Below are positions 34,819 to 49,539 of a stretch of DNA of 64,000 bases, in pieces. The notes under the pieces are model-generated. The model saw only the letters and a program-made list of their open reading frames with translations. It ran no database searches and was not told where the DNA came from. Position 1 is the first letter of the stretch; every line of letters starts with the position of its first letter. The DNA comes from Pseudomonadota bacterium. GTDB lineage: Bacteria; Pseudomonadota; Alphaproteobacteria; Caulobacterales; Caulobacteraceae. The position numbers and the translations under genes are program-made. The stretch is taken from NCBI GenBank assembly GCA_021808285.1, contig JAKBBV010000005.1, positions 1-64,000 of the forward strand, read 5' to 3'.

Positions 34819-36192
34819 TCAGGAGGCCAGAAGCCGGGTCACGCTGGCGCGAAAGGCTTCGGAGAGCTCGGTCCGCCGGCGATGGCGCCCGTCCTCCACC
34901 ACCAGGCTCCCGCGCCGCCACACCCGATCCACCGCCGTGCGGCCGGCGGCGAAGAGCCAGTGATCTAGGACGGCGTCGGGCCTCGCGCCTCTCGGCGGCG
35001 ATTCCTCTTCGTGCAGGCAGACGATATCGGCCGCCCTTCCAGGCGCCAGTCCGGCCGGGCCGCATGCCAAGGCCTGTGCGCCGCCGTGCAAGGCCGCCTC
35101 GAACAAGCGTCGACCCGTGGAGGCTCCCTGCGGCTCGGCCAGGACGTTGCGCGCCTTCCAGGCCAGGCGCTGGGCGTATTCGAGCTGGCGCAGCTCCTGG
35201 GCCGCGTCGATGGCGATATTCGAGTCCGTGCCCACACCCATGACGCCGCCATGATCGAGAAAGGCCCGGGCCGGGAAGACGCCGTCGCCCAGATTGGCCT
35301 CGGTGATCGGGCACAGCCCCGCCGCGGCGCCGCTGGCGGCCAGTCGCCGGGTCTCCTGCGCGGTGAGGTGGGTGGCGTGGATCAGGCACCAGCGCGCGTC
35401 GAGCCCGACCTCGTCTAGCAGCCATTCCACCGGACGCCGCCCGCTCCAGGCGAGGCAGTCCTCCACCTCCTTCACCTGCTCGGCGGCGTGGATGTGCACC
35501 GCTCCGGCGCCGGCCAGGGGCAGGATCTCGGCAAGATCCCGCGGGCTCACCGCACGCAGAGAATGGGGCGCCAGGCCCAGCCCGGCATCGGGCAGGGGAG
35601 CAATGGCGGCGCGGCTCGCCTCGACCAGGCGGGCGAAACGGTCGGGATCGTTGAGGAACCGGCGCTGGCCCGGCGCGGCCGGCGCACCGCCAAATCCGCC
35701 CTGGCGATAATAGACCGGCAGCAGGGTCAGGCCGATCCCGCTCGCCCCGGCGGCGGCGGCGATGCGCTGGGTCATCTCGCCCAGGGCCGCATAGGGCCGC
35801 CCCTGCGGATCGTGGTGCAGATAGTGGAACTCGCCCACGCGGGTGAATCCGCTCTCCAGCATCTCGGCGAAGGCCAGGGCGGAGATCGCCTCGACATCCT
35901 CCGGCGTCATCCGATCGAGAAACCGGTACATCAGCTCGCGCCAGGACCAGAAGTCGTCACGCCCGGCGCCGCGATACTCGGTCAGGCCGGCCATGCCGCG
36001 CTGAAAGGCATGGCTGTGCAGATTGGAAAGGCCCGCAAGCCCCACCGCGCCGCGCGTCTCGCCCGGGAAAGGGTCAACCCCCTCGGAGACCGTCGCGATC
36101 CGCCCCTCGCGCACCGTCAGCCGCACCCGGTCGGCCCAGCCGTCGGGCAGAAGGGCCCGTTCGAACCAAAGGGAGTCGGGGGCGGCGCTCAT
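34819..36192 (-). CDS. hutF: Formimidoylglutamate deiminase
   Basis: Zinc amidohydrolase that converts N-formimidoyl-glutamate to N-formyl-glutamate and ammonia, the first half of the two-step HutF/HutG branch of histidine degradation. At 457 aa it matches the family. Seen: the metal-binding GLSNLHSHAFQRGMAG (HxH) near residue 55, the HutF-typical FWSWRELMYRF, VHIHAAEQVKEVEDC, and MGVGTDSNIAID with the catalytic Asp near 320. It is divergent from hutI across 44 bp. Its stop lies 9 bp before hutC. Confidence 0.95.
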   Translation of the reverse strand: MSAAPDSLWFERALLPDGWADRVRLTVREGRIATVSEGVDPFPGETRGAVGLAGLSNLHSHAFQRGMAGLTEYRGAGRDDFWSWRELMYRFLDRMTPEDVEAISALAFAEMLESGFTRVGEFHYLHHDPQGRPYAALGEMTQRIAAAAGASGIGLTLLPVYYRQGGFGGAPAAPGQRRFLNDPDRFARLVEASRAAIAPLPDAGLGLAPHSLRAVSPRDLAEILPLAGAGAVHIHAAEQVKEVEDCLAWSGRRPVEWLLDEVGLDARWCLIHATHLTAQETRRLAASGAAAGLCPITEANLGDGVFPARAFLDHGGVMGVGTDSNIAIDAAQELRQLEYAQRLAWKARNVLAEPQGASTGRRLFEAALHGGAQALACGPAGLAPGRAADIVCLHEEESPPRGARPDAVLDHWLFAAGRTAVDRVWRRGSLVVEDGRHRRRTELSEAFRASVTRLLAS

Positions 36193-36198
36193 AAATAA

Positions 36199-36208
36199 TG
36201 TCTAGACA
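36199..36208. promoter_or_regulatory. HutC operator in the hutF/hutI divergent promoter
   Basis: TGTCTAGACA is a perfect 10-bp palindrome within the 44-bp space between the divergent starts of hutF and hutI. It matches the TGT-nnnn-ACA architecture of HutC operators. Placed here, one site can repress both transcripts. Confidence 0.8.
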
Positions 36209-36236
36209 ATAATGGGGATTTGGACAAGTCTGGGCC

Positions 36237-37442
36237 ATGCGTTGCGACCGCATCTGGACCCGGGCCCGTCTGGCCACGCTCGCTTCCGGCCGACCGGACC
36301 TCGGCGTGGTGGAAGAGGGCCTGGTGGCCTCCCGCGATGGGCGCATCCTCTATGCCGGGCCGGCGGCCGAGGCGCCGGATCTGCAGGCAGCGGAGATCGT
36401 CGACTGCGAAGGCCGCTGGATCACGCCGGGCCTGATCGATGCGCACACCCACCTCGTCCATGCCGGCGACCGCGCGGCGGAGTTCGAGCTGCGCCTCGCC
36501 GGCGCCAGCTATGAGGAGATCGCCCGTTCCGGCGGGGGCATCCTCTCCACAGTGCGCGCGACGCGCGCCGCCGCCGAGGCAGAGCTGGTCGCGGCCGCCC
36601 TGCCGCGTCTGGACGCCCTGATCGCCGAGGGCGCGACCACGGTGGAGATCAAGTCCGGCTATGGCCTCACCCTGGTCGACGAGATCAAATCCCTGCGCGT
36701 GGTCCGGTCCCTGACCGGGGCGCGTCCGGTGCGCCTGCGCGCCACCCTCCTGGCCGCCCATGCGGCGCCGCCAGAATATGCCGGCGATCCCGACGGCTAT
36801 ATCGATCTGATCTGCCGCGACATCCTGCCCGCCGCCGCGAGCGAGGGCCTGGCCGACGCCGTCGACGCCTTCTGCGAGAGCATCGCTTTCACGCCAGCCC
36901 AGGTCGAGCGGGTGTTTCGGGCCGCCCGCGCCCATGGCCTGCCGGTCAAGCTGCACGCCGAGCAGTTGTCCAACCAGGGGGGAGCGGCGCTCGCCGCCCG
37001 CTATGGCGCGCTCTCTGTCGATCATCTGGAACATCTGGACGCCGCCGGCGTCGCCGCCCTGGCCCGCGCTGGCTGTGTGGCAACCCTCCTGCCGGGCGCC
37101 TACCTCTTCTTGCGAGAGACTAAGACGCCGCCGGTGGAGGCCCTGCGCGCGGCGGGCGTCCCCATGGCGCTGGCCACCGACTGCAATCCGGGCACATCGC
37201 CCCTGACCTCGCTGCTCCTGGCCATGAATCTGGCCGCGACCCTGTTCCGCCTCACCGTGACGGAGTGCCTGGCGGGGGTGACGCGAGAGGCCGCCCGGGC
37301 GCTCGGCCTTCAGGATGAGACCGGCGCGCTGGAGGCCGGTAAGGCCTGCGACCTCGCCATTTGGGACATCGAGCGACCCGCCGAGCTTGTCTACCGGATG
37401 GGCTTCAACCCGCTTCATGCAAGGATCTGGGCCGGCCAATGA
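36237..37442 (+). CDS. hutI: Imidazolonepropionase
   Basis: Third enzyme of histidine degradation; it hydrolyses imidazolone-5-propionate to N-formimidoyl-glutamate. The 401-aa amidohydrolase has [18 protein letters not shown] (HxH metal site near residue 70), [26 protein letters not shown] and [13 protein letters not shown] (Asp ligand near 315). Its start is 29 bp beyond the HutC palindrome with no strong Shine-Dalgarno. The stop overlaps the hutH ATG (ATGA), so it leads a fully coupled hutIHGU operon. Confidence 0.95.
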
Positions 37443-38989
37443 CCCTCCTCACCCTCGCTCCCGGCGCCGTCACCCTGGCCGACTGGCGCGCCCTTTGGCT
37501 GGGGGCTTCGGCGCGGCTGGATCCCGCCGCCTGGCCCCGGATCGAAGCGAGCGCGGCGGCGGTGGGGCGCATCCTCGCCAAAGGTGAGCCGGTCTATGGC
37601 GTCAATACCGGCTTCGGGCGCCTGGCCAGCGTGCGCATCGCCGATGAGGACCTGGCCCGGCTGCAGCGCAACATCGTGCTCTCCCACGCCGCCGGAACCG
37701 GCGATCCGGCCCCCGCGGCCATCGTGCGCCTGATGATGGCGCTGAAGCTCGCCAGCTTCGGCCACGGCGCCTCGGGCGTGCGGCGCGAGACCGCCTCGCG
37801 CCTGGAGATGATGCTGGCGCGGGGCCTGATCCCCGTCGTCCCGGCCCAGGGCTCGGTGGGGGCCTCCGGCGACCTCGCTCCGCTGGCGCATATGGCCGCC
37901 GCCATGATCGGCGTGGGCGAGATCGAGATGCAGGGCGAGCGCCTGCCCGCCGCCGCCGCCCTGGCCCGCGCTGGGCTCGATCCCCTGACGTTGGGACCCA
38001 AGGAGGGTCTGGCCCTGCTCAACGGCACGCAATTCTCGACCGCGAACGCCCTGGCGGGCCTGTTCGAGGCCGACCGTCTGTTCGCCTCGGCCCTGATCTC
38101 CGGCGCTCTTTCCACCGAGGCGGCCAAGGGCTCTGACACCCCCTTCGATCCTCGCATCCACGCCCTGCGCCGCCACGGCGGCCAGATCGCCTGCGCCGAG
38201 GCCCTGCGAGAGCTGATGGCCGGCTCCGCGATCCGCGCCAGCCATCTCAAGGACGACGAGCGGGTCCAGGATCCCTATTGCCTGCGCTGCCAGCCCCAGG
38301 TCATGGGCGCGGCCCTGACCGTGCTGCGGCAAGCCGCCCGCACCCTGGCGGAGGAGGCCGACGGCGTTTCCGACAACCCGCTGATCTTCGCCGAGACGGA
38401 CGAGTGCCTGTCCGGCGGCAACTTCCACGCCGAGCCTGTGGCCTTCGCCGCCGACATGATCGCGCTGGCTCTGTGCGAGATCGGGGCCCTGGCCGAACGC
38501 CGCATCGCCATGCTGGTGGATGCGGACCTGTCGCGCCTGCCGCCCTTTCTGACGCCTGATCCAGGTCTCAATTCAGGTTTCATGATCCCCCAGGTCACGG
38601 CCGCGGCCCTGGTCTCGGAGAACAAGCAGGCCGCTTATCCGGCCAGCGTCGATTCCATCCCCACCTCGGCCAACCAGGAGGACCACGTGTCCATGGCCGC
38701 GCATGGCGCCCGGCGGCTCGCCCCCATGGCGCGAAACGCCGCCGCGGTGATCGGCATCGAGCTTCTGGTCGGGGCCCAGGGCTGCGACTTCCACGCCGGT
38801 CTCGCCTCCAGCGCGCCGCTGGAGCGGGTCCGGGCGGCGCTTCGCGCCGTCTCTCCGCGCCTGGAAGCCGACCGTCACCTGCACCCCGACATCGAAGCCG
38901 CCGCCCTCCTGGTCCGCAGCGGCGCGGTGGTGGAGGCCGCCGCCCTCGCCCTGCCGGGGGCGCTCCTGGAAGGGGAGCGGGCCGCGTGA
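37439..38989 (+). CDS. hutH: Histidine ammonia-lyase
   Basis: First enzyme of the pathway; it deaminates L-histidine to urocanate using the autocatalytic MIO prosthetic group. The MIO-forming Ala-Ser-Gly is in [15 protein letters not shown] near residue 145. Other conserved parts are [40 protein letters not shown] and [15 protein letters not shown]. The 516-aa product starts at ATG 37439, overlapping the hutI stop; the ORF-track start 37361 lies within hutI. The hutG GTG overlaps its stop. Confidence 0.97.
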
Positions 38990-39816
38990 CGCCTTCCTGG
39001 CTGGAGGTGCGTCAGGGTGCGGCGCCGCTGATCGTCAGTCTGCCGCATACGGGAACCGACCTTCCCGAGGACATCGAGACAGGCCTCGTCTCTCCCTGGC
39101 TCGCGCGCCGCGACGCGGACTGGTGGGTTGATCGGCTTTACGCCTTCGCCGAGGACCTGGACGCCACCTTCGTGCGCACGACGCTCAGCCGAAGCGTCAT
39201 CGACGTTAATCGCGACCCTTCCGGCGCCTCGCTCTATCCGGGCCAGGCGACCACCGAGCTTTGCCCCCTGACCACCTTCGACGGCGAGCCGCTCCATCGG
39301 CCCGGCTGCGCGCCTGACGCCGCTGAGATCTCGCGTCGCACCGCGCTCTATTTCGCTCCCTATCACGCGGCTCTGGAGGCGCAGATCGTCCGCCTGCGCG
39401 CCCGCTATTCCCGCGTCGTGCTCTATGACGCCCACTCCATCCGCTCGCGCATTCCGCGCCTGTTCGAGGGCGAGCTGGCGCAGTTCAACATCGGCGTGAA
39501 CGGCGGAGTGAGCTGCGATGGCGCTCTGACCGCGGCGGTGGCGGAGCTGTGCGCCGCCAGCTCTTTCAGCTGGGTGGTCGACGGCCGTTTCAAGGGCGGC
39601 TGGACGACCCGCCGTTATGGCCGCCCCTCCGACGGCGTTCACGCTCTGCAGATGGAGCTGGCCTGTCGCGGATACATGGACGAGCCGGACGGCCCGCCGA
39701 CGCCGGGCGCCTGGCCTCCCGCCTTCGAGGCCGCGCGCGCCGCGCCGCTCCTTGCTGTCCTTCGCCCCATCCTCGAAGCCTGCCTCGCCTTCGCCTCTTC
39801 CGGGAGCGCCCCATGA
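38986..39816 (+). CDS. hutG: N-formylglutamate deformylase
   Basis: Zinc amidohydrolase that hydrolyses N-formylglutamate to formate and glutamate, completing the HutF/HutG branch. The 276-aa product has [13 protein letters not shown] at the N-terminus, NRDPSG and GATTEL-like [24 protein letters not shown], and [13 protein letters not shown] near residue 200, all typical of the family. The start is a GTG overlapping the hutH stop (GTGA); the stop overlaps the hutU ATG (ATGA). Confidence 0.95.
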
Positions 39817-41477
39817 CCCGCCACGACCCGACCCGCATCATCCGCCCGGCTACGGGCTCCCGCCTGACCGCCCGAAGCTGGCTGACCGAGGCGCCGCTGC
39901 GCATGCTGATGAACAATCTCCATCCCGACGTGGCCGAGCGGCCGGAGGACCTGGTGGTCTATGGCGGGGTGGGCCGGGCCGCTCGAGACTGGGAGAGCTT
40001 CGACCGCATCGTCGAGACACTGCGCCGTCTGGAGGAGGACGAAACCCTGCTGGTCCAGTCCGGCAAGCCGGTGGGCGTCTTCCGCACCCACGCCGACGCG
40101 CCTCGGGTGCTGATCGCCAACTCCAATCTGGTGCCGCGCTGGGCCACCTGGGAGCATTTCCACGAACTCGACCGCAAGGGCCTGGCCATGTACGGCCAGA
40201 TGACCGCCGGATCGTGGATCTATATCGGCGCCCAGGGCATCGTTCAGGGCACCTATGAGACCCTGGTGGAGATGGGCCGCCAGCATTACGGCGGCGACCT
40301 TTCCGGCCGTTGGCTGCTCACCGCCGGGCTCGGCGGCATGGGCGGAGCCCAGCCCCTGGCCGCGGTCATGGCCGGGGCCTCGTGCCTGGCTATCGAGTGC
40401 CAGCCCAGTCGTATCGAGATGCGCCTGCGCACCGGCTATCTCGACCTGAGCGCCGCGGATCTGGACGAGGCCCTGACGATCATCGAACGCGCCTGCCGCG
40501 AGCGACGCGCCGTTTCGGTGGGTCTCCTGGGCAACGCCGCCGAGCTCCTGCCCGAGCTCTTCCGCCGCGGCGTGCGGCCGGACCTCCTCACCGACCAGAC
40601 CTCGGCCCATGATCCGGTCAACGGCTATCTGCCCAAGGGCTGGACGTTGGAACGCTGGGCCGCCATGCGCCATCAGGCCCCCGACCAGGTCGAGGCGGCG
40701 GCCCGGGCTTCCATGACCGAGCACGTCCGCGCCATGCTCGACTTCCAGGCCGCCGGCGTGCCGACGGTGGATTACGGCAACAATATCCGCCAGGTCGCCA
40801 AGGATGAGGGGGTGGAGAACGCCTTCGCCTTTCCGGGTTTCGTGCCGGCCTATATCCGGCCCCTGTTCTGTCGCGGGATCGGTCCGTTCCGCTGGGCCGC
40901 CCTCTCCGGCGATCCGGAGGATATCTACCGCACCGACGCCAAGGTGAAGGAGCTGATCCCCGACAATCCGCACCTGCACACCTGGCTCGACATGGCCAGG
41001 CGCCGCATCCGTTTCCAGGGCCTGCCGGCGCGCATCTGCTGGGTGGGGCTGGGCGATCGTCACCGCCTGGGTCTCGCCTTCAACGAGATGGTCGCCCGGG
41101 GCGAGCTTTCGGCCCCCGTGGTGATCGGCCGCGACCACCTGGATTCCGGCTCCGTCGCCTCGCCCAACCGCGAGACCGAGGCCATGCGCGACGGCTCTGA
41201 CGCCGTTTCGGACTGGCCCCTGCTCAATGCGCTGCTCAACACCGCCTCAGGCGCCACCTGGGTCTCGCTTCACCATGGCGGCGGGGTGGGCATGGGCTAT
41301 TCGCAGCATGCGGGCATGGTGGTGGTCTGCGATGGGACGGAGGCGGCGGCCCGGCGCATCGCGCGGGTGCTGTGGAACGACCCCGCCAGCGGCGTCATGC
41401 GCCACGCCGACGCCGGCTATCCCGACGCCATCGCCTGCGCCCGCGAGCACGGCCTGGACCTTCCCAGCCTGGGGTGA
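39813..41477 (+). CDS. hutU: Urocanate hydratase
   Basis: Second enzyme of the pathway; it hydrates urocanate to imidazolonepropionate with tightly bound NAD+. The 554-aa product has the expected length. Seen: [55 protein letters not shown] (NAD-binding), [33 protein letters not shown] and [18 protein letters not shown] chose ATG 39813, which overlaps the hutG stop and has GGGAG upstream; the longer ORF from 39549 is a shadow in hutG. It is the last gene of hutIHGU, followed by about 225 bp of GC-rich spacer with no gene seen. Confidence 0.97.
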
Positions 41478-41702: not shown

Positions 41703-42944
41703 TCAGGTCAGGGCCGAATAGATCAGGGTCTTGAGTTCACGCCGGATCGGATACAGCAGGGACGGGCTGAGCTGTGTCATGAACACCATGTGCAGTCGCT
41801 CCACGGGGTCGATGAAGAAGGCCGTGGTGAACATTCCACCCCAATAATATTCTCCCGCCGAACCGGAAATCATGGCGCGGGCTGGGTCCTGGGTGACGGC
41901 GAATCCCAAGCCGAAGCCGACTCCGGCATTCTGAGTTTCGCTGAACATGGAACGCGACAGACTCGCAAGGTCCAGGCGGCCCGGCAGATGATTGGTCGTC
42001 ATCAGTTCGAGGGTCTTGCGTCCCAGCAAGCGTACGCCGTCCAACGCGCCGCCTCCGGCGCACATCAAGCAGAATCGGTGGTAGTCGAGCGCGGTGGAGA
42101 CGAGGCCGCCGCCCCCAGATACCAGGCGCGGCGGGTTCAGCCAGATGCTCCCCTCCGCGCGATCGAACATCACGCGACCTTCCGCCGGGCTCTTCCAAAC
42201 ATAACAATCCGTCAGTCGAGGCGCCTTCTGCGGCGGAACGGAGAAGGCGGTGTCATTCATCTGCAGCGGCGCGAAGATCCTGTCTGAAAGGTAGCGGTCG
42301 AGCGGGAGACCGGAGACGCGTTGGATCACCGCCCCAAGGACATCGGTCGAAACCGAGTAGTTCCACGCCTCGCCGGGCGAAAACTCGAGCGGCAGTTTGG
42401 CGAGCGCGGCGACCGCCCCGTCGAGATCCAGGCCGGCATGCCAGTTTTCCACGGCGCCGGGGTCGAACCCGCCGGCCCGATAGGCCGCATCGATATGGGT
42501 GCGGTTCTGGAAGCCGTAGGTCAGGCCGGATGTGTGGCGCAGCAGATCGAGCATCCGCATCGGCTCGTTGGCGCGGCGGGTGACAAACGCGACACCGCCG
42601 CCGCCGGCGGCATAGACCCCGGTATCGGTGAACTCGGGCAGAACGTCCTGAACCAGCGTGTCGAGGCCGACCCGTCCTTCTTCCACAAGCATCATGAAGC
42701 CCACGGTCGTGATCGGCTTGGTCATGCTGGCGATGCGGAAGATGGATGTCTCATCGATCGGCGTGTCCGACCCGGCTCTCGCGGCGCCCTGACTGCTGAA
42801 ATGGACGATCTGACCGTCGCGGCTGATCAGGATCTGGGCGTGCGGCAGCCGCCCGGAATCGAGGTATTTCGCCTTCAGGAAGTCGTCGATGCGGTTCAGT
42901 CGCGAGGGGGCGAATCCCAGCCGTTCAGCGTGAGAATGCGTCAC
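41703..42944 (-). CDS. Serine hydrolase of the beta-lactamase/EstB family (second copy)
   Basis: A PF00144 serine hydrolase of 413 aa. SxxK is in IFRIASMTKPITT near residue 75, and the Tyr motif reads WNYSVSTDVLG near residue 190. Both closely resemble the 686-1930 protein, so the two are paralogues. No signal peptide is visible. The ORF track starts at a TTG (42953); the GTG at 42944 has GGGAGG about 10 nt upstream and is preferred. It is divergent from a GST gene, and their shared intergenic region carries the TGTCGTAC element also found before the TBDR at 45817. This suggests a role in the same catabolic unit, possibly hydrolysing an ester of the imported compound (inference). Confidence 0.86.
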   Translation of the reverse strand: MTHSHAERLGFAPSRLNRIDDFLKAKYLDSGRLPHAQILISRDGQIVHFSSQGAARAGSDTPIDETSIFRIASMTKPITTVGFMMLVEEGRVGLDTLVQDVLPEFTDTGVYAAGGGGVAFVTRRANEPMRMLDLLRHTSGLTYGFQNRTHIDAAYRAGGFDPGAVENWHAGLDLDGAVAALAKLPLEFSPGEAWNYSVSTDVLGAVIQRVSGLPLDRYLSDRIFAPLQMNDTAFSVPPQKAPRLTDCYVWKSPAEGRVMFDRAEGSIWLNPPRLVSGGGGLVSTALDYHRFCLMCAGGGALDGVRLLGRKTLELMTTNHLPGRLDLASLSRSMFSETQNAGVGFGLGFAVTQDPARAMISGSAGEYYWGGMFTTAFFIDPVERLHMVFMTQLSPSLLYPIRRELKTLIYSALT

Positions 42945-43005
42945 GGACCACAAGCCTCCCGCTCGACCAAGCGATGGAGCCTATTGGCCTCAAAAGCGCA
43001 GAGCA

Positions 43006-43042
43006 ACGACAATGTCGTACGTTATAGCCGAAAATGCCGTGC
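43006..43042. promoter_or_regulatory. Candidate GntR operator: two TGTCGTAC-type repeats 22 bp apart
   Basis: Between the divergent serine hydrolase and GST lies TGTCGTAC at 43013-43020, inside a perfect CGACA-A-TGTCG palindrome (43007-43017). A weaker copy, TGCCGTGC, lies exactly 22 bp further at 43035-43042. The same core and the same 22-bp period recur upstream of the TBDR at 45817. The nearby FCD-family GntR protein is the natural candidate to bind it. Confidence 0.55.
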
Positions 43043-43132
43043 AATTTTCACCCTTCCAGTCCTGCCGGCAGTGCGGATATCGAGGTGAGGGCGGCGTCCG
43101 TCATCTGCCGCACCTCAAGGGAACGGCCGCGT

Positions 43133-43762
43133 ATGATCGACCTCTACCACTGCGCAGATGCTCGCTCATTCCGCGCCCTCTGGGCGCTTGAGGAGCTTGG
43201 GCTGGCCTACAGGTTGCATGTCCTGCCGTTTCCCCCGCGCGTGCACAGGCCGCAATTCCTCCAGGACAACCCGCTGGGCACGATTCCCCTTCTGGTCGAC
43301 GGCGAGGTGCGCATGACGGAGTCCGCCGCCATCACCCACTACCTGGCCACACGCTATGGCCCGAGCGACCTGGCTGTAGGAGTGGAGGAGGCCGATTACG
43401 GTCTGTGGCTCGACTGGCTGCACAGGAGTGAGGCGACCCTGACCTTCCCGCAGACGATCATCCTGCGCTACACGCGCCTGGAGCCGGAGGAGCGCCGCCT
43501 CGCCCAGGCGGCCATGGATTACACCCAGTGGTTTCTCTCGCGCCTGCGGCATCTGACTCGCGCCCTCACTGATCGCCACTGGCTATGCGCGGACCGGTTC
43601 ACCATGGCCGATCTATGCGTCGGCTATGCTCTGCTCCTGGCGCTGGACCTTGGCCTGGGTCCGAAGTTCAGTCCTGAGATCGCCGGCTATTGGGAACGGC
43701 TGGCCTCCCGGCCCGCCTTCCTCGCCGCCAAGCGCGCCCAGAGCGAAAACGAACGCGCCTAG
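43133..43762 (+). CDS. Glutathione S-transferase family protein
   Basis: A 209-aa cytosolic GST. The N-terminal thioredoxin-like domain (residues 1-78) has YHCADARSFRALWALEE, the cis-Pro segment GTIPLLVDG and the glutathione-binding Glu-Ser in RMTESAAITHYLA. The C-terminal all-alpha domain carries RFTMADLCVGYALLLA (the N-capping box). ATG 43133 is chosen because the product then starts at the first beta strand (MIDLYH); the upstream extension is not family-like. It is divergent from the serine hydrolase and converges on the Tat-exported hydrolase (4-nt overlap). The substrate is unknown; the context links it to the GntR/TBDR cluster. Confidence 0.88.
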   Translation: MIDLYHCADARSFRALWALEELGLAYRLHVLPFPPRVHRPQFLQDNPLGTIPLLVDGEVRMTESAAITHYLATRYGPSDLAVGVEEADYGLWLDWLHRSEATLTFPQTIILRYTRLEPEERRLAQAAMDYTQWFLSRLRHLTRALTDRHWLCADRFTMADLCVGYALLLALDLGLGPKFSPEIAGYWERLASRPAFLAAKRAQSENERA

Positions 43763-44805
43763 GCGAGGGCCTTGGTGAGACGCAGCCAGAGTTGCTGATC
43801 GAAATCGAGATCGGTGGCGGCGCCCATGCGCACGACGATCAGCTTCTGGCTTGGCGCGATATAGAGCTTGCGATCCAGCGCCCCAAGCGCCGCCACAAGA
43901 TCCGCCGGCGCGGCTGGGATCAGGGGGCCGGGCTCCTTTTGTCCACGCCGGATGGAATAGGCCCCGCCATTGAGCCACCACAATCTGCCATAGGCCGGGT
44001 TGGCGGGGGAGCGTTGAAACATGGCCCCAAGGCTGGCCTGTGAAACCAGGCGCGTTCCGTCGGAGGCTAGTCCGCCGTCGAGCACGATCTGGCCGAACCG
44101 GACGGAGTCCCTTGGGCTCGTGACGAGCCCCATGGTGTTGCCGGCCGCCGTGAACAGGGGATTGGCGGGTCGATGGCGCCAGGCCGTCTGGGTCAGGCCA
44201 GCGGGCGCTGTGAGCCAGTCGCGCGTGAGCGTTTCCAGGGGTTGGCCCGCTGCGGCGCTCAGGATCTTCTGGGTGATGGCGTAGACGGGCGTGTTGTAGA
44301 AGAACATCGACCCTGGCGGGGCCTCGTAGGTGAAGGCCTCGGTCAGGCCCGAGCTCATGTTCAGGACATGGATGACGCGGATGGCGGCCTCGCGGTCCGT
44401 TTCCGCCTTGGACCAGCCCTTGCCGAGATAGTCCAGGACCGGCCGGTTCACATCGATCAGCCCCTTGTCGATGGCGATGGCGACAAGCATGGAGACCCAG
44501 CTCTTCTGCTGCGACGCGACGTCCTCCAGAAGCGCGCCCTCGGGCGTGGTCTCATAGGCAAAGGCCCTGAAGAGTGGGGTGTCCGGCGCCGGCCAGTTCC
44601 GTTCCACCAGGATTGTGCGATCCCGGACGGCCATGAAGCCGGTTGTGTGTTGCGACCTGGCGTAGGAGAGGGCCTCTTCCATGGCCTTGGCGACAGGCTC
44701 GGAGGAGCTCATGTCAGGCCCCGCGATTCCGGAAGAGGGCAGCGCCAAGGCGCCCAGACCTGCCGCGCGGGCCAGGACATTCCGGCGGGAGAGGGACAAG
44801 GGCAT
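43759..44805 (-). CDS. Tat-exported serine hydrolase, beta-lactamase-like
   Basis: A 348-aa PF00144-type protein with a twin-arginine signal (SRRNVLARAAGLGALAL, residues 6-22), which places it in the periplasm. The SxxK motif is in DVASQQKSWVSML near residue 98; the second motif is MFFYNTPVYAITQ near residue 170 (Tyr-Asn-Thr). It is shorter and more divergent than the other two serine hydrolases here. AGGAG precedes the ATG by 7 nt. It lies 35 bp downstream of the GntR gene on the same strand, so the two are probably one transcript. It may process a substrate entering through the TBDR at 45817 (inference). Confidence 0.85.
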   Translation of the reverse strand: MPLSLSRRNVLARAAGLGALALPSSGIAGPDMSSSEPVAKAMEEALSYARSQHTTGFMAVRDRTILVERNWPAPDTPLFRAFAYETTPEGALLEDVASQQKSWVSMLVAIAIDKGLIDVNRPVLDYLGKGWSKAETDREAAIRVIHVLNMSSGLTEAFTYEAPPGSMFFYNTPVYAITQKILSAAAGQPLETLTRDWLTAPAGLTQTAWRHRPANPLFTAAGNTMGLVTSPRDSVRFGQIVLDGGLASDGTRLVSQASLGAMFQRSPANPAYGRLWWLNGGAYSIRRGQKEPGPLIPAAPADLVAALGALDRKLYIAPSQKLIVVRMGAATDLDFDQQLWLRLTKALA

Positions 44806-44840: not shown

Positions 44841-45584
44841 TCAGCGCCTGCCGGCGACCCGACGGCGGGCGGGGCCAGCCGCGGCCGGTTCGCGCATGCC
44901 GAGGCCACGCGCCAGCATCAGCCGGGCGACTTCGGCCTGCATGAAATAGAGGATCTGCCGGGCGCCTTCCGCCGCCTTGGCCGCATCGCGCTCGGCGAGG
45001 CCGGCCCGCATGGTCTCCCAATGATCGAAAGGCCCCCTCACGGTCGAGCTTTCGGCCAGCCCCACATAGGACCAGTGCCATCGGGTCTTGCGCCGCACCG
45101 CCTCGATCATCTTTTGCGCGTCGAGGCTGGCCGTGCTCGCCATGAGACTGAAGATCACCTCGCTCTGGTGGATGAGATCCGCGGCGGTCGCACCGGTCTC
45201 CGAGGCGGCGAGCAAGGCATCGGATTTCTTCAGGATCTCCGCCATCAGAGCGGCTGAGGCGCGAATGCAGGCGAAGCGCGCGGCAACGCCGTAGAGACCC
45301 GCGCGAAGCTCATAGAGATCGAACACTTCCTGCAGCGTGGTTGCGGTGACGCTGGCGCCTCGATTGGGTTCGAGCATCACCAGGCCATCCTCCGCCAGGT
45401 TCGCCAGGGCCCGCCGCGCGATCGAACGGCCGACGCCGAATTCGGCGCAGAGGCGGGCCTCCCTCATCCACTCGCCCGCGGACCAAAGACCCTCCTGGAT
45501 CTGGTGACGCAGACGTTCCGTCACCTCCGCCGCGGACGGTCCCGCGCCTCGACTCGGGCGTGGGGCGGGTGCGGCTTTATCCAT
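44841..45584 (-). CDS. GntR-family regulator, FCD (FadR-like) subfamily
   Basis: A 247-aa transcription factor. The N-terminal winged helix (VTERLRHQIQEGLWSAGEWM, LCAEFGVGRSIARRALANL) is followed by an all-helical FCD effector domain (residues 95-225, with FDLYELRAGLYGVAARFA, LIHQSEVIFSLM and HWETMRAGLAERD). I chose ATG 45584 because GAGGA lies 5 nt upstream; ATG 45671 (276 aa) is possible, and 45872 would run through the promoter region of the divergent TBDR. It shares the intergenic region holding three TGTCG-type repeats, so it probably controls itself, the TBDR and the downstream serine hydrolase. The effector is unknown. Confidence 0.87.
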   Translation of the reverse strand: MDKAAPAPRPSRGAGPSAAEVTERLRHQIQEGLWSAGEWMREARLCAEFGVGRSIARRALANLAEDGLVMLEPNRGASVTATTLQEVFDLYELRAGLYGVAARFACIRASAALMAEILKKSDALLAASETGATAADLIHQSEVIFSLMASTASLDAQKMIEAVRRKTRWHWSYVGLAESSTVRGPFDHWETMRAGLAERDAAKAAEGARQILYFMQAEVARLMLARGLGMREPAAAGPARRRVAGRR

Positions 45585-45703
45585 CCGTGTCCTCGACTGC
45601 TCCGTATCCTCGAACGCCGAGGTCTCAGCGGCTGTCCGCGCCTCGCTGGGCGGAGGCTTGATTGCGACCATCCTGCGCGAAGGCGCACGCCGGAGCAAGC
45701 CGG

Positions 45704-45757
45704 CGTGTCGTTCATAGGGCGACAAATTGTCGTACAACTCAATTGACAAAGTCGCAC
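45704..45757. promoter_or_regulatory. Candidate GntR operator array: three TGTCG repeats with 22-bp period
   Basis: In the gntR/TBDR divergent region, TGTCGTTC (45706), TGTCGTAC (45728) and AGTCGCAC (45750) recur at exactly 22-bp steps, about two helical turns. The central copy is within a perfect CGACAA-A-TTGTCG palindrome (45720-45732) and also reads TTGT-cgt-ACAA, matching the TnGTnnnACnA shape of FCD-GntR operators. A TTGACA (-35-like) lies at 45743-45748. Confidence 0.6.
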
Positions 45758-45816
45758 GATTATTGGCAGCCTTGCCTCCAACCGGTCGAGTCAAACGCCG
45801 GGTTGGGGAGGAGTCC

Positions 45817-48216
45817 ATGCGCCAGGGAATTGGCCGCGCGGTCGCAGCCGCGCTCGGTTTCGTCAGCATCACGCCCGCCGCTGCGTTCGCTCAGGTCACA
45901 GCGACGCCGCCGGCCGCCAGCGCGGCCCCCGCCGCACCAGCGGCCCCGTCCGCCAGCGGGTCGGACACCGCGGCCCTCCTGGGTGAGGTCGTGGTGACCG
46001 CGCGCAAGACGGAGGAGCAGCTGCGCGACATTCCCGCCACCGTCTCGGCGGTGAGTTCAGCCCAGATCATGGATGAGGGACCGCTCGTGGGGACCGGCGA
46101 TCTTCTCCGCACAGTGCCTGGGGTGCGTTTCAACAATCTTGAGGCGCCCAATCTGAGCGAAATATCGATCAGGGGTTCAGGCACAGAGCGGGCGACGGGC
46201 GCGGATTCCGCCGTCGGCCTGTTCGTCAACGGCGCCTATGTGGGCTCCTCGACCCTGGGCGGCCGCAACTTCATGAATATCGACTATTTCGATCTCGACC
46301 GGGTCGAAGTCCTGCAGGGGCCGCAAGGCGCGCTCTATGGCCGCAATTCCGAATATGGCGCCGTCAACATCGTGCTGGCCAAACCACAATTCGATAACTC
46401 GGGCTATGTGGATGACTCCTACACAGGCGGCCTGGAACGCAATCAGCTCGACGCCGTGGCCAACTACGCCCTGAGCGACGACGTCGCGGTGCGTTTCGGC
46501 GCGGAGGCCATCGGGCAGACCAAGGGCCTGCAGTTCAATCCCGATCAGAACACCTATTACGACACGGAGTCCGGCTGGATCGGGCGGGGGCAGATCCGCT
46601 ATCGGCGCGGCCCGCTCGACGTCGATCTGCTGGTCGATGCGCAGGACATGACCCTGCCGGCCTTCGCCAATGTCTATAACCTGCCGCCGGGGGTGATCAG
46701 CACGATTCCCAAGGGCTTTGTCGGCAACCGCTTCACCGTTCCCAGCGACGGGCTCAACAACACCGAGCAGAAAATGCAGCGGATCATGCTCGATGGCAGC
46801 CTGGATCTCGGCTGGGGCGAGCTGACCTCGACGACGATGGTGACGGCGTCACAATCGCTCCAGCATTACGGTTCATCGATCGACCTCGCCCAGGAGGCGT
46901 CGTTCCAGTCGCAAGGCGAGATCGGCGCCTATCCTCTGGCTGACACCGCGACGCGCTCCACCGACAGGACCTTCTATCAGGACCTTCACCTGGACGGAAA
47001 AGCCCTCGACGGCCATTTCAAGTGGCTGGCCGGGGCGGAGTTCCTGCTCCAGCACGATGACAACGGTGTGCAGAACACCACCAGCCCGTGCGCATTGAAG
47101 GTCGGCGCCGGGATCTGCGGCGGCACGCCCAGCGCGCCCATCTGCGACCTCGTCCTGAAGACCTCGTCGCCCTGTCCCGCAACCTATCCGCTCGCCTTCG
47201 GGGCGATCAGCAATACGCCCGAGAAGTTCGTCTCCAAATCGCTCTACGGTTCGGTGAGCTACACTCTCCAGCGCTTCACCCTGGACGGAGAGCTGCGGTA
47301 CACGAACGATAACAAGACCGCGACCCAGTATGCCTACGCCCTCTATACCAACCTTCCCAGCGCAGCTCCGCAGGCCCACGCCTTCAGCGCTGGCAACCTG
47401 AGCTACAGCGCCACTCTCAGCTACAAGCTGCCCGGTGACTGGGACGATCTGCTCTATGCCAAGACCGGAAGCGGCTATCGCGCCGGGGGAATCAACGGCG
47501 GCATCGCTAATCCCAACGCGCCGACGCCCTTTCAGCCCACCTATGGCGATGAAATCACGACCAGCTACGAGATCGGCTTCAAGGGCGACCTGGGATCACA
47601 CCTCTATGTGACGCTGGACGGCTATCTGTCGCACACCGACAACGCCATCGCGGTGATAAATGACGGCTGCACGGTCCTCAACGCCTGCGGCACGGCTCCG
47701 ACGCAGTTCAACATCAACGGCGGCACGGTTCATGCCCGGGGCGTGGAGGCCGCCATCAATGGACGTTTCCGGATCCTCGATGGGACGCTGGAGGTCATGG
47801 TCAGCGGCGCCAACCAGCACGCCGACTATTCCAGCATTCCGAGCGGCTACTCAGGTCTGCCGATCCTCGGCTCTCTGGTCGCGCAGACGCCCACCTGGAC
47901 CGACGCGGCCACGGTGAACTACAGTCATCCCATCACCCAGACGGTGGATGGCTTCTTCAACCTGACCTATAACGGTCAGAGCGGCGGCGCGCAGGACACG
48001 ACCACGGCTCTCGCCCCGGAAATCAGTCTGTCCAGTTTCAGCGACGTGAGTCTGCGGACGGGCGCCAAGTGGCATAATCTGGAGCTGGCCCTGTTCATTC
48101 AGAACCTTACCAATGACACTGTCCAGCTGCTGAAGTTCGAACAGGGCGCCACGGTCTTTGCCGCGCGCTTCAACGAGCCCCGCACTTTCGGCGTTAACGC
48201 CGTCTTCCGCTGGTGA
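45817..48216 (+). CDS. TonB-dependent outer-membrane receptor of the GntR-linked cluster
   Basis: A 799-aa TBDR. The signal peptide (MRQGIGRAVAAALGFVSITPAAAFAQ) starts at ATG 45817, which has GGGGAGGAG 3-8 nt upstream; the ORF-track start 45727 lies in the operator array. After an Ala/Pro linker come a TonB-box-like EVVVTARKTEEQ near residue 65, plug motifs (IPATVSAVSS, LRTVPGVRFNN, EISIRGSG, VEVLQGPQGALYGRNSEYGAV), and a barrel ending NAVFRW with terminal Trp. It is not of the siderophore-signature type and there is no Fur-like box nearby. It is followed after 12 bp by the Tat-exported M28-like protein, so receptor and hydrolase are probably co-expressed. Confidence 0.9.
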   Translation: MRQGIGRAVAAALGFVSITPAAAFAQVTATPPAASAAPAAPAAPSASGSDTAALLGEVVVTARKTEEQLRDIPATVSAVSSAQIMDEGPLVGTGDLLRTVPGVRFNNLEAPNLSEISIRGSGTERATGADSAVGLFVNGAYVGSSTLGGRNFMNIDYFDLDRVEVLQGPQGALYGRNSEYGAVNIVLAKPQFDNSGYVDDSYTGGLERNQLDAVANYALSDDVAVRFGAEAIGQTKGLQFNPDQNTYYDTESGWIGRGQIRYRRGPLDVDLLVDAQDMTLPAFANVYNLPPGVISTIPKGFVGNRFTVPSDGLNNTEQKMQRIMLDGSLDLGWGELTSTTMVTASQSLQHYGSSIDLAQEASFQSQGEIGAYPLADTATRSTDRTFYQDLHLDGKALDGHFKWLAGAEFLLQHDDNGVQNTTSPCALKVGAGICGGTPSAPICDLVLKTSSPCPATYPLAFGAISNTPEKFVSKSLYGSVSYTLQRFTLDGELRYTNDNKTATQYAYALYTNLPSAAPQAHAFSAGNLSYSATLSYKLPGDWDDLLYAKTGSGYRAGGINGGIANPNAPTPFQPTYGDEITTSYEIGFKGDLGSHLYVTLDGYLSHTDNAIAVINDGCTVLNACGTAPTQFNINGGTVHARGVEAAINGRFRILDGTLEVMVSGANQHADYSSIPSGYSGLPILGSLVAQTPTWTDAATVNYSHPITQTVDGFFNLTYNGQSGGAQDTTTALAPEISLSSFSDVSLRTGAKWHNLELALFIQNLTNDTVQLLKFEQGATVFAARFNEPRTFGVNAVFRW

Positions 48217-48228
48217 ACGGCAAGGGCG

Positions 48229-49539
48229 ATGGCGCAGCTGACATCCTCCCGCAGGACTTTCCTCGGCGTTGCCGGTCTGGCGGGGCTGGGGGCGGCCGCC
48301 CCCGCGCCTGGCTCTTCGGACGAGGCCGATCTTGGCGTGATTGAGGGGACTCTTGAGCGATACGCCGGATTTGGCGTCAAAGCCTCCGGTGGTCCCGGCG
48401 ACCAGGCTTGCGGCGCCTGGCTTGAGGCTGAACTTGCGAGCCGAGGTTATGTCCCGCGCAGGCAGCTCTTTGAGGCGCCCTTTTTCGAGCCTCTCCAGGC
48501 GCGTCTGACCTGTGGCGACGCGGCCGCGACGCTTGTCCCGCAGGCCATCGTGGCCTTCACCGGGGCGGAGGGCCTCACTGCGCCCTTGAGGCTGGCGTCC
48601 GAACCCGGCGATCTTTCCGGAGCGATCGCGCTGATCGTCCTGCCCTACAGCCGCTGGATCACACTCCTTCAGCCGGAAATCGCGCAGTCCTTGACGGATG
48701 CGCGGCGCCGTGGCGCGGCTGCGGCGGTGATCGTGACGACGGGTCCGACCCGCGAAGCGGTGGCCCTGAACGTGTCCGCGGATGGCTCGGGCTTCGATCG
48801 CCCCACCGCGATCCTGGCGCCCAAGGATGCGGAGCCCTTCATCGCCGCGGCCAGGGCCGGCCGGACGGGAAACCTCATCCTCACAGGAAGGGGAGGGCGC
48901 AGAGGCGCCTTCAACCTGATCGCGCGACGCGACAGGGCGGCGCCCAAGACCCTCATCCTCTCAACCCCGCGATCTGGCTGGTTCAGTTGCGCGGCCGAGC
49001 GCGGCTCGGGCCTCGCCGTCTGGCTTTGGCTCGCCGAATGGCTCGCGACCGCCGAGGTGGATGTGAATGTGGAGCTGGTGGCGACGAGCGGACACGAATA
49101 CCAGTTTCTGGGCGGCGAGCTCTATCTGGCGCAGGCCGCGCCTTCACCCGACCGCACGCGGCTCTGGGTGCATATCGGGGCCAGCGCGGCGGCCCGGGAT
49201 TGGCAGGAGTTCGGGCCCCGGCTTCTGCCCCTGCCCAGCGCCGACGCCCAGCGCTTCCTCACGGCCACAGCCGACCTGCTCGAGTCGACCCGCCGCGCCT
49301 TCAAGGGCATCACGGGCCTGGAGGCGACCTACCTTGCCGACAAGGTCATGGCCGGCGGCGAACTGACCAATGTTCTGCACGCCGGTTATCGCTCGGCCAT
49401 CGGCCTGTACGGCGTCCACCGCTATTTCCACACCCAGGACGACGACCTCCGCTGCGTCTCAGGCGACCTTGTCCTGCCCGTCGCGCGCGCGTTCCAGACC
49501 GCCATCCTTGCGGCGCTTTCCACCTCGTCAGAGGGCTGA
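48229..49539 (+). CDS. Tat-exported M28-peptidase-like protein with degenerate metal site
   Basis: A 436-aa protein with a twin-arginine signal (SSRRTFLGVAGLAGLGAA). Residues 120-220 look like a PA-type insert (LASEPGDLSGAIALIVL, RRRGAAAAVIV). Residues 230-430 follow the M28 aminopeptidase order, but the metal residues are altered: the usual GAHxD segment reads LILSTPRSGWF, the DNxSG segment reads AERGSG, and the Glu-Glu pair reads SGHEYQFLGG. Only the final His (YFHTQDDDL) is clearly retained. It may be a non-peptidase relative or use another metal set. It is coupled in context to the TBDR upstream and ends 164 bp before a convergent DUF1330 gene. Function is unknown. Confidence 0.7.
   Translation: MAQLTSSRRTFLGVAGLAGLGAAAPAPGSSDEADLGVIEGTLERYAGFGVKASGGPGDQACGAWLEAELASRGYVPRRQLFEAPFFEPLQARLTCGDAAATLVPQAIVAFTGAEGLTAPLRLASEPGDLSGAIALIVLPYSRWITLLQPEIAQSLTDARRRGAAAAVIVTTGPTREAVALNVSADGSGFDRPTAILAPKDAEPFIAAARAGRTGNLILTGRGGRRGAFNLIARRDRAAPKTLILSTPRSGWFSCAAERGSGLAVWLWLAEWLATAEVDVNVELVATSGHEYQFLGGELYLAQAAPSPDRTRLWVHIGASAAARDWQEFGPRLLPLPSADAQRFLTATADLLESTRRAFKGITGLEATYLADKVMAGGELTNVLHAGYRSAIGLYGVHRYFHTQDDDLRCVSGDLVLPVARAFQTAILAALSTSSEG

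Follow-up and report, generated by a model that had tools for sequence, protein, structure and literature searches.

Evenly spaced candidate operators of a GntR-type regulator in the divergent gntR/TonB-receptor promoter of a Caulobacteraceae genome

The intergenic region between a gntR gene and a divergent gene for a TonB-dependent receptor (TBDR) carries short repeats at regular steps, which raises the question of whether they are binding sites of the adjacent regulator, and of what the even spacing stands for. The original prediction, made on the 64 kb stretch of Caulobacteraceae DNA analysed here (the window), described three TGTCG repeats 22 bp apart in this promoter, echoed in a second divergent region between the BlaB and GST genes. 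The start positions given for all five copies are correct: TGTCGTTC, TGTCGTAC and AGTCGCAC start at 45706, 45728 and 45750, and in the second region TGTCGTAC and TGCCGTGC start at 43013 and 43035. On both strands of the window, TGTCGTAC is found at 43013 and 45728 only. When the flanks were shuffled and the middle copy kept fixed, a comparable equally spaced triple (a flanking pair with up to 2 mismatches each, at any common step of 15-30 bp) arose in 0.02% of trials.

The TGTCG direct repeat is not what evolution has kept. The CGACA(A)/(T)TGTCG palindromes, to which the strongest copies had been assigned, are present as described, with CGACAAATTGTCG at 45720 and CGACAATGTCG at 43007, but they occur in just 1 of the 24 gntR sites and in 3 of the 8 BlaB/GST sites. 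Neither the direct repeat nor this palindrome being conserved, both were discarded as the repeat unit. The conserved unit is the palindrome TTGTNNNACAA, and the repeat is better described as an operator of the FadR/FCD type of GntR proteins, T-N-GT-NNN-AC-N-A. The consensus of the FadR subfamily, as given in the relevant passages of Suvorova et al. (2015, PMC4494728), is an A/T-rich palindrome with TKGT and ACMA boxes, usually with 3 nt between GT and AC. The middle copy, once extended, reads TTGTCGTACAA, a perfect palindrome of the form TNGTNNNACNA which, along with the orthologous sites, fits TKGT-N3-ACMA. It is very probable that the repeats serve as operators for the GntR encoded next to them; they are called O1, O2 and O3 below. 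The region is organized as follows.

43759 to 44805, reverse strand: BlaA, SxxK serine hydrolase gene (PF00144), downstream of gntR
44841 to 45584, reverse strand: gntR, presumed regulator, GntR winged HTH plus FCD-like domain (PF00392 hit, PF07729 borderline, VanR-like fold)
45670 to 45698, reverse strand: candidate gntR promoter TTGCTC-N17-CAGGAT; a TTGC(T/C)(C/A)-N17 pattern occurs in several orthologues
45705 to 45715, no strand: O1, GTGTCGTTCAT, weak operator with 3 of 4 GT..AC bases, at exactly 22 bp from O2 and directly next to the candidate gntR -35 box
45727 to 45737, no strand: O2, TTGTCGTACAA, strong operator, the sole TTGTNNNACAA in the window
45743 to 45748, forward strand: TTGACA, candidate -35 box for the receptor gene; the gap of 5 bp to O2 is shared by most main-clade orthologues
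45749 to 45759, no strand: O3, AAGTCGCACGA, intermediate operator, GTNNNAC intact, exactly 22 bp from O2, within the receptor promoter spacer
45817 to 48216, forward strand: TonB-dependent receptor gene, presumed target, with Plug domain
48229 to 49539, forward strand: gene for a protein of M28-aminopeptidase fold, presumed part of the receptor's operon

No clear -10 box of the receptor promoter could be read from the sequence.

Orthologues of the GntR protein, 54-81% identical, occur in genomes of Phenylobacterium, Caulobacter, Sphingomonas and relatives. The original prediction had staked itself on the intergenic regions of orthologues, and for the palindrome conservation holds there: one copy lies upstream of gntR in 25 of the 25 distinct orthologous loci examined, in the forms TTGTACGACAA, TTGTACGACGA, TTGTTGAACAA, TTGTTCGACAA and TTGTACAACAA, and once as TCGTAGTACGA. 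In at least 13 of the 25, gntR is divergent from a TBDR gene. The outer sites are weak, and some orthologues (L037, L040 and L042) lack one of them or both; the O1 position is filled at +22 in 12 of 24 orthologous sites and at +21 in 6, the O3 position in 8 of 24. In a sample of 15 genomes from the genus to which the window belongs, none has the regulator at E <= 1e-40, and the cluster is therefore patchily distributed. One Sphingomonadales MAG (G126) hosts, besides locus L043, a second gntR/BlaA/TBDR/MFS/M28/GST cluster (L130), each with its own operator.

The distance between sites is conserved as well. With orthologous loci aligned on the palindrome alone, a second GT..AC signal is strongest, among non-overlapping offsets, at +22 and -22, a maximum reached by 0 of 2000 circular-shift controls on the non-redundant set. 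In one subclade, in which the core is ACA, the distance is 21 bp instead of 22. Offsets 20 and 23, on either side, are filled in 0 of 38 sites, against 4.7% for a 3-of-4 match in the background. The peak next in height, at -12, stems from the receptor promoter, whose conserved -35 box reads GTCAA here (TTGAC on the opposite strand). A free-spacing pattern was also run over 299 genomes of the family; in these partial counts, regulon-type cores among the matches listed stand 22 bp apart in 12 cases, 21 bp in 4 and at other distances in 7, and 15 of the 16 listed sites at 21/22 bp fall in the 22 genomes which carry this GntR. Operator identity, conservation, the spacing rule and co-occurrence with the regulator are established at the level of sequence. 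As a side observation, TTGTGTGACGA and ATGTCGTATAA lie exactly 22 bp apart about 150 bp upstream of the gene for a 45%-identical GntR (L194; G262, C386), hinting that the spacing rule extends beyond close orthologues.

The strongest evidence comes from promoters which are not homologous to gntR/TBDR. There, at BlaB/GST, TBDR/MFS and BlaA/M28 promoters, the last in Caulobacter sp. 602-1, the palindrome is found again with a partner 22 bp away. The -22 position is filled in 6 of 8 BlaB/GST sites; all 6 TBDR/MFS sites have a partner at +22, and 3 of the 6 have one at -22. The folded offset profile of these non-homologous promoters reaches 3.75 at 22, against 2.14 at most elsewhere, and 0 of 5000 shifted controls attain the value at 22. 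The 22-bp step of the original prediction is accordingly conserved across orthologues and present at several promoters, and, because palindrome and partner recur at unrelated promoters of one gene set, the sequences mark the spacing as a property of the regulator. In locus L039 the gntR and BlaB/GST operators share a variant core (TTGTTGAACAA / TTGTTCAACAA), as expected if one regulator reads both. The second region of the window comprises the following features.

41703 to 42953, reverse strand: BlaB, family VIII esterase-like SxxK serine hydrolase gene, presumed target
43012 to 43022, no strand: ATGTCGTACGT, weakened operator between BlaB and GST
43034 to 43044, no strand: ATGCCGTGCAA, the partner originally claimed
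43133 to 43762, forward strand: GST gene, presumed target

The echo seen in this region survives in one of its two halves. The site at 43012-43022 has lost the outer T and A, and its conserved -22 partner is absent; it is very probably a real but weakened operator, since seven further BlaB/GST promoters have a perfect operator at the corresponding position. The 43035 copy retains 2 of the 4 invariant GT..AC bases, and the +22 position is filled in 0 of 8 BlaB/GST sites. It was rejected as an operator, not being conserved, and is probably a chance occurrence, because the conserved partner of BlaB/GST promoters sits on the other side of the main site. All genome scans were carried out by pattern matching. 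In the whole 2.9 Mb genome GTCGTAC-N15-GTNNNAC has a single match, at O2-O3. The same genome holds 7 perfect TTGTNNNACAA and 20 TGTCGTAC sites. No other GTCGTAC has a GTNNNAC partner at 22 bp, and no further regulon member could therefore be added in the window's genome.

The regulator belongs to the GntR family by virtue of its N-terminal winged HTH (PF00392, 55 bits against a cut-off of 27); the candidate FCD domain, in this subfamily an all-helical effector domain, scores 23.3 bits with PF07729, just under the Pfam cut-off of 24.3. The predicted structure, of moderate confidence (pLDDT 76.7), shows seven helices at residues 84-225, some of which possibly split, and no coiled-coil segment. 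Its closest folds are FCD/VanR structures (E 7e-6, TM under 0.6), the first being Atu1419, a VanR-type FCD regulator. The best hits are VanR members; their subgroup lacks an additional helix which follows the linker in FadR members (PMC7797058). The GntR may be a VanR-like FCD regulator. The three-His plus Asp/Asn site of metal-binding FCD domains was not found: a single histidine, H170, is invariant in 19 orthologues. E42, R53, S54 and R57 are invariant or nearly so in the same set, and plausibly match, by a constant offset of 8, the DNA-contact residues Glu34, Arg45, Thr46 and Arg49 of Atu1419 and FadR. A literature search retrieved no GntR with this operator for Caulobacter. HutC was also considered as the regulator, hut genes being adjacent, and was rejected, as HutC models score far below cut-offs. 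The histidine utilisation (hut) genes, at 34819-41477, adjoin the cluster without visible link to the GntR operators.

How the array works may be pictured as follows. A GntR dimer would bind the strong palindrome O2, beside the -35 box of the receptor promoter, and further dimers would occupy the weaker O3, between the -35 and -10 boxes of the receptor, and O1, abutting the -35 box of gntR. A distance of 22 bp amounts to two helical turns and would set neighbouring dimers on one face of DNA; cooperative binding, as the original prediction had it, fits this arrangement. The array would repress both divergent transcripts, the receptor operon and gntR itself (autoregulation), as is consistent with the placement of O1, O2 and O3 at -35 boxes and spacer. 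An inducer, probably derived from the imported substrate, would release repression. The BlaB/GST pair would be under the same regulator via the 43012 site and, in relatives, the regulator would also control a second receptor with an MFS transporter and the BlaA/M28 pair. GntR binding, cooperativity, repression and release by the inducer are what we infer from the layout. We assign a probability of roughly 0.78 to the whole reading, namely that O1-O2-O3 is a tandem operator array through which cooperating GntR dimers repress the receptor operon and gntR, within a wider regulon.

Much of this picture is known from other systems. In FadR-type divergons double sites at constant distance have been interpreted as cooperative (PMC4494728, passages on divergons), and double sites at constant distance are found here too, 22 bp (21 in one subclade), in several promoter classes. 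As described in those passages, which give no 22-bp figure, FadR/FCD divergons are alike in the TKGT-N3-ACMA palindrome, in the regulator divergent from its target and in pairs at fixed distance; here, in contrast, up to three sites occur, and the same spacing is found also at promoters without a regulator gene. NanR of E. coli is likewise a GntR-type repressor of an uptake and catabolic regulon, and three dimers sit on its repeated operator, but the latter consists of (GGTATA)3 direct repeats rather than of palindromes two turns apart (PMC8012715). Atu1419 of Agrobacterium fabrum, the best fold match, shares membership in the VanR subgroup, palindromic GT..AC sites and divergent autoregulation; unlike the window's GntR, it features short ATGTATACAT sites 190 bp apart, a tetramer, DNA looping and a three-His zinc site (PMC7797058). 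BusR is likewise a GntR-type winged-HTH protein, and strictly requires 22 bp between its two motifs, yet it belongs to a different subfamily, with an RCK_C effector domain, a coiled-coil ruler and c-di-AMP as corepressor, and its bipartite motif spans three turns (PMC8517857).

Alternative explanations fare unequally. Chance repetition in an A/T-rich intergenic stretch could be invoked, as lone TGTCG words are frequent (85 and 81 copies in the window), but conservation and the recurrence of the 22-bp step at unrelated promoters reduce its probability to practically nothing; chance is refuted for O2 and the 22-bp step, and stays likely for the 43035 copy. That the sites serve a different transcription factor, their place next to gntR being a coincidence, is very improbable. 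The palindrome is of a type common to many GntR proteins; against this stand the 15 of 16 regulon-type pairs which, among the matches listed, reside in genomes with this GntR, the fact that pairs always include GntR's own promoter region, and the match to the FadR-type consensus as reported in the passages of PMC4494728.

The mode of action leaves more room. The sites could be served by a single tetramer, or by dimers making no contact; the 22 bp would then be set by a ruler within the protein or by the geometry of the promoter, and not by cooperativity between dimers. We regard this as unlikely. In its favour, the closest fold, Atu1419, is a tetramer (PMC7797058), and the ruler of BusR serves sites 22 bp apart (PMC8517857). 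Yet, the sites of Atu1419 are 190 bp apart, the GntR model shows no coiled-coil segment, and the up to three equal-step sites of the window and of L036 fit side-by-side dimers better than one tetramer. It is also conceivable, but improbable, that GntR at O2 activates the receptor promoter, with the outer sites modulating: the centre of O2 lies about 13 bp upstream of that of the -35 hexamer, a location some activators use, but O3 sits in the -35/-10 spacer and O1 borders the -35 box of gntR, both of them typical repressor positions. Moreover, FCD regulators of uptake operons are mostly repressors. Repression by cooperating dimers remains the preferred reading.

The gene set looks like a system which takes up and hydrolyses a compound bearing ester or amide groups. 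In relatives it is joined by an MFS carrier, of which no orthologue was found in the window's genome (best 34% identity). The best PDB folds for the M28-fold protein are 2ek8 and 6hc6. In this protein and its orthologues (alignment A1), the usual zinc-ligand motifs are seemingly replaced by invariant TPRSGW, ER, GHEY and HxG; the protein may therefore bind metal differently, or not be a peptidase.

GntR repressors, palindromic operators and paired sites in divergent promoters are already known, and the arrangement is a fairly ordinary kind of gene switch. The sequence comparisons give good support to an array which is real, conserved and of a known kind; its strict spacing is interesting, the principle unsurprising. 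A broader view, tentative and held at somewhat less than even odds, is that this GntR clade follows one two-turn spacing rule throughout its regulon, neighbouring dimers stacking every 22 bp (every 21 bp where the core is ACA) and specificity thereby gaining a second layer, and that the clade controls an undescribed uptake/hydrolysis pathway made of TonB receptor, MFS carrier, two SxxK hydrolases, GST and an M28-fold protein whose metal site is altered. For an uncharacterised uptake cluster of Caulobacteraceae and sphingomonads, the analysis yields a regulator, an operator code and a spacing rule, all testable, and a clean natural set in which to study how GntR dimers may cooperate on adjacent sites.
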